Shown piece after piece: positions 29,571-38,109 of a stretch of 64,000 nucleotides of DNA (positions within the stretch are counted from its first letter, which is position 1; each line of letters starts with the position of its first letter). A program made the position numbers and the translations under genes. The notes under the pieces are model-generated. The model saw nothing but the letters and a program-made list of their open reading frames with translations. It did no database searches and was not told the DNA's origin. This DNA is from Collinsella stercoris DSM 13279 (GTDB taxonomy: Bacteria > Actinomycetota > Coriobacteriia > Coriobacteriales > Coriobacteriaceae): positions 744,001-808,000 of the forward strand of contig NZ_CP085935.1 of NCBI RefSeq assembly GCF_020735465.1. Reading direction: 5' to 3'.

Positions 29571-31019
29571 ATGGACTCCGTCATCGCTTTCATCGGCCCC
29601 TTGTTCTGGGGCCTCGTGCTTCTTTCCGCTCTCGTCTTCGTCCACGAGGGCGGACATTTTCTCGCCGCGCGCGTTTGCGGCGTTCGCGTGCTCGAGTTCT
29701 TCCTCGGCATGCCCTGCAGATTCAACCTGCATCACGTCTCCAAGCGCATAGGGACCAAATTCGGCGTGACGCCCATCCTGTTGGGAGGCTACGCCGAGAT
29801 CTGCGGCATGGACCCGACCGACGTCGCCTGCGCGCCGCGGGTCCTCGGCTCCATCCATCGCAGCGGCGTCGCCCGCGTCTCCGACCTCGCAGCCGAGCTC
29901 GACGTTTCCCAGTCCGAGATCGAAGACGCCTGCTCGCTGCTGTACGGCTGGGGATCGATCGTTCCCTGGGACGTCGAGCCCATGCAGGGCGAGGAGGGGT
30001 CCCAGGGCTCCAAGGGCTTCCCGACGGCATTCGCCGCCGTCGCGCGCGATGCGGCGGGCAACACCCTGTACGATGGGCGGGCCTTCGACCGCGCGCATGC
30101 CACCAAACAAGGTGAGCCCTGGAACCCGCCCATGGACGATCAGGCGTTCTTTGATGCCGAGCGGTCGCATACGTATGTGGGAAAGGGTTTTTGGAAGCGC
30201 GCGCTCATGCTCGTCGCCGGTATCGCCGTGAACATCCTCACGGGGTTCCTGCTGGTAATCGCCGTGTATTCGGTGCTCGGTGTTTCAACGCCGGTCGACG
30301 CCAACGTGGTGGGCGGCGTCGTCGAGGGCTCACCTGCCGACGAGGCGGGGCTCAAGGTCGGTGACCGTATCCAAGGTGTCGATGGAACGTCCGTCGACTC
30401 GTGGATGTCCCTGCTTGAGGCGCTTGATGCCCACGGCGACCAGGACGCGATCTCGCTGGAGGTATGGCGCCCGCGCGATCAAGCCGATGCGTTCGAGCAC
30501 GTCATGCCCGACGATCTCGACAGGGCCGACGCTTGGTTCGACGAGCATGGCGATTTCAAGACGATCGAGGTCTCCTTTGATGAGGACGGGATGCTCGGCA
30601 TCAACGTCCCGACGCAAGTCGTGCGGCTCGATCCCCTCCAGTCGTGCCAGATCGCCATCGACAACATCGTCGCGACGGCTCAGTCCGTGATGAACCTGTT
30701 GAACCCCCGTCACACCATGGAGGTCCTTGATAACTCAACGTCCGTTGTCGGCATCTCGGTCATGTCTGCTGAGGCGGCGGCTGCGGGCCCGGCGACCTTC
30801 CTCAACCTCGCCGCGCTCATCTCGTTCTCGCTCGGCTTCATGAACCTCCTGCCCATTCCGCCCCTCGATGGCGGCAAGCTGCTCATCGAGGTGATCCAGG
30901 CGGTGACGAGGCGCGAGGTCCCCATCAAGATCCAAAGCGCCATCTCGGTGGTGGGTATCGTGCTGTTCGGCTTGCTGTTCATCTACATGCTGCGCGCCGA
31001 TTTCCTGCGGTTCTTCTAG
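29571..31019 (+). CDS. RseP-like site-2 zinc metalloprotease (M50) with PDZ domain and an unusual cytosolic insert
   Basis: The protein cleaves substrates inside the membrane. HEGGH at residues 25-29 in TM1 and PPLDGGK near residue 430 form the zinc site; a PDZ domain spans about 245-340. Between the LLGGY segment (about 71-74) and the second transmembrane helix (about 208-236) lies an insert of roughly 120 residues. Residues 88-133 look like a winged helix (VLGSIHRSGVARVSDLAAEL, then VSQSEIEDACSLL), and the rest is Gly/Pro-rich. By RseP topology this insert should be cytosolic. The gene follows dxr by 16 bp; ispG follows by 13 bp. Intramembrane protease assignment is firm, substrate unknown. 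Confidence 0.9.
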   Translation: MDSVIAFIGPLFWGLVLLSALVFVHEGGHFLAARVCGVRVLEFFLGMPCRFNLHHVSKRIGTKFGVTPILLGGYAEICGMDPTDVACAPRVLGSIHRSGVARVSDLAAELDVSQSEIEDACSLLYGWGSIVPWDVEPMQGEEGSQGSKGFPTAFAAVARDAAGNTLYDGRAFDRAHATKQGEPWNPPMDDQAFFDAERSHTYVGKGFWKRALMLVAGIAVNILTGFLLVIAVYSVLGVSTPVDANVVGGVVEGSPADEAGLKVGDRIQGVDGTSVDSWMSLLEALDAHGDQDAISLEVWRPRDQADAFEHVMPDDLDRADAWFDEHGDFKTIEVSFDEDGMLGINVPTQVVRLDPLQSCQIAIDNIVATAQSVMNLLNPRHTMEVLDNSTSVVGISVMSAEAAAAGPATFLNLAALISFSLGFMNLLPIPPLDGGKLLIEVIQAVTRREVPIKIQSAISVVGIVLFGLLFIYMLRADFLRFF

Positions 31020-37132: not shown

Positions 37133-37415
37133 GGCCGCCGCCATCGCCTTGACGGTCGTCGGCATGGCGTGCCGCGTCATCGCGCTCGTGCTGTGCGCGC
37201 TCACGGTGGCGCTCTGCTTCAACGGCGTGGCCACCAAGCTCAACATCGTCACGTTCGTGGTCGAGCTCACGCAGACGCTGCCCGACGTCATCGCCGGGTA
37301 CGGGTTGATCGCCACGCCGTTCGGGGGCGTCTTCAGGTTCGATTTCGCCTGCATGGCCGTCGTGTTCTTTGCGCTCGACTACCTGTGCGCGCGTTGCGCC
37401 CGCACGCTTCGATAG
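37119..37415 (+). CDS. Small hypothetical membrane protein
   Basis: A 98-residue frame starts with GTG at 37119, overlapping the last 14 bases of the ABC-F gene, with GAGGAGG about ten bases upstream. It has a basic N-terminus, a transmembrane segment about residues 6-28 (Ala/Leu/Val-rich with two Cys), a second near 75-92, and a CARCARTLR tail. I do not recognise a family. The overlap and the next gene 11 bp downstream suggest co-translation with the ABC-F gene and M50 protease. Confidence 0.7.
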   Translation: MDSRRAAAIALTVVGMACRVIALVLCALTVALCFNGVATKLNIVTFVVELTQTLPDVIAGYGLIATPFGGVFRFDFACMAVVFFALDYLCARCARTLR

Positions 37416-37425
37416 GATCATTACG

Positions 37426-38109
37426 ATGAACATACCGTATCTGGTGAGCCTTCTCTCGAGCGCCTGCGCGCTCATCATCGGCATCGTCATCCATGAGAGC
37501 GCGCATGCCCTCGCGGCGTATGCGCTCGGGGACCGCACGGCGCGCTCACGCGGCCGCGTCTCGCTCAACCCGCTCAACCATATCGACCCCTTTGGCACTG
37601 TGCTGTTGCCGCTCATCATGATCTTGGCCGGCGGTCCGGTCTTCGCGTTCGCCAAGCCGGTCCCGGTGTACGTGAACAACCTCAAGAACCCGCGGCGAGA
37701 CGAGGTGCTCATCTCGCTTGCCGGGCCCGCCTCCAACATCGTCCTCGCCTGCATATGCGCGCTCATCCTTCGCGGCATGCCGGGCGCCACGCTCGTGAGC
37801 CCGCTTTCGAGCGACGTCGTCAACCTCCTCGTGGGCTTCCTGTTCACGGCGATGTCGGTCAACCTGTCCCTGGCGTTCTTCAACCTCATTCCCTTGCCGC
37901 CCCTGGACGGCTCGTCGATCCTCGTGCTGTTTCTCAAGGGCCGCGCACTGCAGACGTACTACGAGGTTCAGCGGTACGCCATGCCCATCCTCATCGTCGT
38001 CCTCTACGTGTTGCCCAGCGTGCTCCACATCGACCTGCTCGATTGGTATTTCGGCGTTACCGTCGACCCGCTGTTCCTGGGCCTGCTGCGCTTCGCGCTC
38101 GGCGCGTAG
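37426..38109 (+). CDS. Site-2 protease family (M50) membrane metalloprotease, YwhC-like
   Basis: The 227-residue protein is a compact M50 protease without a PDZ domain. HESAH at 23-27 in the first helix, the NPLNHIDPFG segment and LPPLDGSS near residue 158 make the zinc site. About five transmembrane helices are predicted. The group includes Bacillus YwhC and related proteins of unknown substrate. It is distinct from the RseP-like enzyme at 29.6 kb. It lies just upstream of scpA, as in a number of Gram-positive genomes. Confidence 0.9.
   Translation: MNIPYLVSLLSSACALIIGIVIHESAHALAAYALGDRTARSRGRVSLNPLNHIDPFGTVLLPLIMILAGGPVFAFAKPVPVYVNNLKNPRRDEVLISLAGPASNIVLACICALILRGMPGATLVSPLSSDVVNLLVGFLFTAMSVNLSLAFFNLIPLPPLDGSSILVLFLKGRALQTYYEVQRYAMPILIVVLYVLPSVLHIDLLDWYFGVTVDPLFLGLLRFALGA

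Follow-up and report, generated by a model that had tools for sequence, protein, structure and literature searches.

A predicted winged-helix domain is inserted beside the substrate-binding strand of the site-2 protease RseP throughout Coriobacteriia

Introduction

In the current understanding, the activity of site-2 proteases is restrained either from the outside, through PDZ size filters and site-1 cleavage, or through separate inhibitor proteins. In group III enzymes the accessory CBS domain is cytosolic and C-terminal. Among site-2 proteases, PDZ domains are characteristic of group I and CBS domains of group III, which lacks PDZ (PMC10202637). The PDZ part of Escherichia coli RseP has been suggested to hold back uncut substrates as a size filter, and cleavage without site-1 cleavage is permitted when PDZ is disrupted (PMC10202637). 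On the other side of the membrane, a membrane-reentrant beta-loop of E. coli RseP enters from the cytoplasmic side (PMC4597795), and the strand Gly67-Val70 binds the substrate in an extended form (PMC4597795, PMC10024687). Control from the cytosol also has a precedent, as EcsAB has been reported to regulate RasP, a group I site-2 protease of Bacillus subtilis (PMC7478892).

Here we describe the RseP of Collinsella stercoris DSM 13279 and its relatives in Coriobacteriia, in which a further domain is inserted into the protease itself. The window that was analysed is a stretch of 64,000 nucleotides (contig NZ_CP085935.1, positions 744,001 to 808,000), and all positions given without a locus name are counted from its first letter.

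Results

The window protein is a group I site-2 protease with an insert

The gene and the parts of the enzyme that are shared with E. coli RseP are as follows.

29571..31019, plus strand: rseP, M50 site-2 protease of 482 residues, between dxr and ispG (TIGR00054 and Peptidase_M50 matches)
29643..29657, plus strand: HEGGH zinc-binding and catalytic motif in TM1, residues 25-29 (read from the sequence; H25, E26, G28 and H29 invariant in the alignment)
29784..29801, plus strand: GGYAEI, end of the membrane-reentrant beta-loop, residues 72-77 (strand 73-77 in the model)
30189..30278, plus strand: second membrane helix (TM2), residues 207-236, with a GxxxN-like motif (model; G217 invariant and N221 nearly invariant in the alignment)
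30291..30479, plus strand: single PDZ domain, residues 241-303 (Pfam), on the extracytoplasmic side by homology
30858..30875, plus strand: PPLDGG, second zinc-ligand motif in TM3, residues 430-435 (read from the sequence; D433, G434 and G435 invariant in the alignment)

With TIGR00054, the NCBIfam equivalog model for the RIP metalloprotease RseP, the rseP product scored 155.9 bits, which is above the cut-off of 147.55, and Pfam matched Peptidase_M50 (E 1.8e-40) together with PDZ (PDZ_6, E 5.7e-10; PDZ_2, E 1e-8; span 236-304, between TM2 and TM3). The gene lies in the cluster tsf-pyrH-frr-uppS-cdsA-dxr-rseP-ispG-proS, in which the neighbours were named by reading their translations, and in the RseP tree the protein adjoins Collinsella sequences. 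Both zinc motifs, HEGGH at 25-29 and LDG at 432-434, were invariant or nearly so in the alignment, and GGYAEI corresponds to Gly67-Val70 of E. coli RseP, the edge strand to which the substrate binds. Like E. coli RseP and the TIGR00054 family (group I), the protein thus has HExxH and LDG motifs, a reentrant beta-loop with a GGY strand, PDZ between TM2 and TM3, and C-terminal membrane helices. It differs in carrying one PDZ domain where E. coli has two, and in having a winged helix of 70 residues and a linker behind the edge strand instead of the short stretch of RseP. The window RseP is an ordinary group I site-2 protease (M50) carrying an inserted domain. The initial annotation had described an RseP-like protease with an insert at 29811-30170 (residues 81-200), and the TIGR00054 score and the short stretch of outgroup RsePs bear this description out.

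A second, shorter M50 protease without PDZ is encoded in the window at 37369-38109 on the plus strand (246 residues; Pfam E 4e-18), directly upstream of an scpA-like gene.

The insert is predicted to fold as a winged helix

The features of the insert are listed below.

29826..30038, plus strand: winged-helix domain, residues 86-156 (AlphaFold2 models of the full-length protein and of the domain alone; Foldseek; weak Pfam matches of single members)
29832..29864, plus strand: helix 1, residues 88-98 (AlphaFold2 model)
29877..29900, plus strand: helix 2, residues 103-110 (AlphaFold2 model)
29910..29948, plus strand: helix 3, residues 114-126, in the "recognition" position, acidic (AlphaFold2 model; charge table)
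29949..29951, plus strand: Trp127, at the junction of helix 3 and strand 2, near-invariant (aligned sequences)
29967..30026, plus strand: wing loop, residues 133-152, rich in Gly, Ser and Glu (low model confidence, pLDDT 57-77 in blocks 131-150)
30039..30179, plus strand: lineage-specific linker to TM2, residues 157-203 (alignment; a segment of about 40 residues conserved in f1 and f2 and partly in f5)

The AlphaFold2 model of the full-length protein, built with 47 homologues, had a mean pLDDT of 93.3 and a pTM of 0.88. Within the insert, helices at 88-98, 103-110 and 114-126 and strands at 100-102, 130-132 and 153-156, with the wing at 133-152, were arranged as H1-S1-H2-H3-S2-wing-S3, and blocks 91-130 reached pLDDT values of 97-98. 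When the insert was folded alone, the same elements were obtained (mean pLDDT 81; core blocks 92-94). In a Foldseek search of the isolated domain against the PDB, the top 50 matches were mostly winged-helix proteins (MarR, Z-alpha, MntR, FtsK gamma), with probabilities mostly of 0.97-1.00, E-values of 0.03-0.14 and a TM-score to the target of up to 0.87. None of these PDB matches reached E 0.001 (best 0.03), as is to be expected of a small and common fold. Single family members matched the Pfam profiles TrmB (1.7e-5), MarR_2 (2.1e-4), FeoC (2.7e-4) and HTH_PafC (4.7e-4), and the window domain itself stayed below every Pfam gathering cut-off, the best being HTH_5 (14.5 bits against 22; E 0.034-0.12). 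A match to DDRGK1/UFL1 (E 7e-5) was set aside, as it was the sum of several weak stretches with no single significant one. The models thus indicate that residues 86-156, approximately, almost certainly adopt a winged-helix fold. The initial annotation had called the insert winged-helix-like and had proposed structure prediction with fold comparison; the predicted topology and the Foldseek matches agree with it and confine the structured part to about 86-156, followed by the linker at 157-203.

The domain would face the cytosol next to the substrate-binding strand

The insert stands between the GGY edge strand and TM2, about ten residues or fewer from the strand that binds the substrate. The best Foldseek matches of the whole model were structures of RasP and of E. 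coli, A. aeolicus and K. koreensis RseP, and PDB 9a6w, in which RasP is modelled with EcsA, was among the matches. Because the insert directly follows the reentrant beta-loop and PDZ lies on the opposite face between TM2 and TM3, homology to E. coli RseP strongly implies that the winged helix is on the cytosolic side, where the initial annotation had also placed it.

The domain is a trait of the class

RseP was present in 295 of the 298 Coriobacteriia genomes searched. The part from helix 1 to strand 2 was nearly gap-free in every Coriobacteriia RseP that was read, covering about fifteen families, except for that of locus L110 (L110:3974-5119, Coriobacteriia MAG Lab288P1bin60), which has PDZ, only a short connection from the GGY strand to TM2, and no winged-helix insert. 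Outgroup RsePs from Caldisericia, Chloroflexi and other Actinomycetota also have only a short stretch there. Since L110 lacks the insert and forms an unresolved basal branch of Coriobacteriia in the RseP tree, the winged helix was either gained a single time close to the base of the class or lost in L110. The alignment across Coriobacteriia that had been proposed at the outset therefore presents the insert as a lineage trait; an oddity private to one genome is ruled out, as the insert is common to the sampled families. Origin of the insert as a chance or mistranslated reading frame is likewise ruled out by its uniform length, its invariant residues and its many homologues.

A profile of the insert plus its flanks was searched over 396 genomes of the phylum, and the matches outside Coriobacteriia arose almost only through the GGY flank. 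Weak longer matches were found in five genomes of f34 and f78 (E 1e-11 to 3e-8); these inserts, judged by eye from their sequences, are helical-looking without a winged-helix pattern and were rejected as homologues. Different helical-looking inserts occur at the same RseP site in f34 (L174-L177, L179-L184 and L189; up to about 130 residues), f78 (L178) and f50 (L187-L188), and the RsePs of Lactobacillaceae (L102, L103) carry there an insert of about 100 residues that also looks different. The loop between the GGY strand and TM2 thus accepts inserts in several lineages, and a winged helix was seen for the Coriobacteriia insert only.

The domain is constrained in length and at single residues

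Over 44 diverse Coriobacteriia sequences, the length of residues 86-132 varied with an SD of 0.5 residues. Mean pairwise identity in this set was 34% for residues 86-132, 33% for PDZ and 44-62% for the catalytic membrane parts, so the winged helix evolves about as fast as PDZ and its overall sequence conservation is moderate. Leu124 and Trp127 were invariant in all 44 sequences; outside this set, Trp127 is replaced by Phe in one member, L050. At the equivalent position, eight GntR domains of the same genome have L, E, E, A, D, S, Q and E; because the position is variable in those domains, the near-invariance of Trp127 suggests a dedicated contact residue.

PDZ is lost and the winged helix kept in Eggerthellaceae

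The RsePs of Eggerthellaceae are mostly 345-370 residues long (one has 401) and lack PDZ, and the winged helix is kept. In a Pfam analysis of six RsePs of the Eggerthellaceae clade, M50 was matched in each and PDZ in none, whereas those of other families, including L110, have PDZ. PDZ-less enzymes were found at L085, L088, L091, L094, L099, L100 and other loci. In 12 Eggerthellaceae genomes, the PDZ-less enzyme was the only RseP-type M50 protease, beside a shorter M50 protein of about 230 residues. With PDZ missing, the winged helix is the only recognised accessory domain left in Eggerthellaceae RseP, and the absence of the PDZ filter would make it a natural candidate for substrate control.

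The charge of the domain differs from that of DNA-binding winged helices

The mean net charge over 42 members was -6.3 for the domain and -4.4 for helix 3, whereas a control of eight GntR winged-helix domains from this genome gave means of -0.4 for the domain and +0.9 for the recognition helix. Helix 3 was net negative in 40 of the 42 members, the remaining two having charges of 0 and +1; the 42 members as a group do not have the basic or neutral recognition helix of MarR/GntR/ArsR-type DNA binders. Where the recognition helices of the GntR domains have an Arg/Ser N-cap, the RseP domain has Asp/Glu. The wing region of the window protein has a net charge of -3, and most Eggerthellaceae wings are mildly basic (+1 to +3). 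Because helix 3 and the whole domain are acidic in comparison with the GntR control, DNA binding by the domain is unlikely, and it is best read as a cytosolic protein-binding module. Of the alternatives offered by the initial annotation, a DNA-binding or a protein-binding domain, the latter is therefore the better reading.

Candidate substrates are limited to some genomes

Sigma-70 region-2 proteins beyond the housekeeping one are present in the same genome. An ECF-type sigma factor adjoins a single-span DUF4179 protein (L205:33-1448, minus strand; own genome, near C1:377339-378308), in which a very basic segment precedes the membrane helix, and this DUF4179 protein is a plausible candidate anti-sigma substrate of RseP. 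No zf-HC2 anti-sigma factors were found in this genome. DUF4179-type anti-sigma candidates occurred in 21 of 99 Coriobacteriia genomes, which rules them out as a dedicated partner of a domain that is class-wide.

Discussion

The results point to a domain architecture that is real, shared by the class and apparently undescribed in a known family of proteases: a literature search that covered only a minority of subscription journals gave no account of a site-2 protease with a winged helix, nor any of the RseP of Coriobacteriia. We propose that early in Coriobacteriia a winged helix was inserted on the cytosolic side, some ten residues or fewer from the strand to which the transmembrane segment of the substrate binds, and that it acts as a protein-protein interaction module. 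It would most likely contact either the substrate, at its cytosolic part, or a cytosolic adaptor. This contact may select or gate the membrane proteins that enter the active site, so that the winged helix would be to the cytosolic side what the PDZ filter is to the extracytoplasmic one. We give this gating or selecting role a probability of roughly one half. It is supported by the computed fold, the site beside the substrate strand, the near-fixed length, the acidity, Trp127, the retention of the domain where PDZ is lost and the EcsAB precedent. Counting against it, no class-wide substrate is evident, because the DUF4179 candidates are limited to 21 of 99 genomes while the domain is class-wide; the moderate sequence conservation of the domain and its weak Foldseek E-values also weigh on this side.

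The architecture can be set beside those of other regulated site-2 proteases. B. subtilis SpoIVFB and Methanocaldococcus jannaschii S2P (group III) also carry an accessory regulatory domain (CBS), but the accessory domain of the Collinsella protein is a winged helix within the protease core, beside the substrate strand. We know of no winged-helix insert in RasP, whose cytosolic-membrane partner is a separate ABC transporter. The domains of MarR, TrmB, PafC and FeoC share the winged-helix fold and weak profile similarity with the Coriobacteriia domain, which differs from them in its acidic helix 3, its near-invariant Trp where helix 3 meets strand 2 and its embedding in a membrane protease. FeoC is itself a winged helix that acts on a membrane transporter.

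The FeoC matches of a few members (best 2.7e-4) would also suit a domain whose docking partner is not the substrate but a dedicated regulator, cytosolic or peripheral, such as an EcsAB-like ABC-type ATPase, or ClpXP/FtsH for hand-over. Regulation of RasP by EcsAB (PMC7478892; 9a6w) is a precedent for such docking, and the class-wide presence of the domain fits a class-wide partner; however, no candidate partner gene was seen, as the uppS-cdsA-dxr-rseP-ispG-proS cluster is common and holds no obvious extra gene. Docking of a regulator is possible but clearly less probable than contact with substrates or an adaptor. A narrower version of the gating role, in which the winged helix reads the cytosolic part of substrates as a specificity filter and in Eggerthellaceae replaces the lost PDZ, so that selection moves from outside to inside, is put forward only tentatively.

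The insert might instead serve mainly as structure: without any partner, it would be a folded spacer that lends stability to the edge strand or to TM2, or that lies on the membrane. The tolerance of this loop for inserts in several lineages (f34, with its helical-looking inserts, f78, f50 and Lactobacillaceae) is consistent with such a spacer, but an identity as high as that of PDZ, the near-fixed length, the near-invariant Trp127 and the retention of the domain in nearly every sampled member of Coriobacteriia, small genomes included, make it rather unlikely. Binding to DNA or RNA, by which the protease would be tethered to the chromosome and, as the initial annotation had supposed, intramembrane proteolysis coupled to transcription, draws on the fold, the weak MarR, TrmB and PafC matches, the DNA-binding proteins among the nearest solved folds and the mildly basic Eggerthellaceae wings, but is very improbable in view of the acidic helix 3, the negative wing of the window protein and the Asp/Glu N-cap, and the supposed coupling is left unsupported.

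If the protein-binding winged helix does gate substrates, it may control which membrane proteins get cut. A cytosolic winged helix that a whole class carries next to the substrate groove would add a built-in control element of a new kind to site-2 proteases, and the PDZ-less enzymes of Eggerthellaceae that keep it would offer, in bacteria common in the human gut, a natural experiment for telling one filter from the other.
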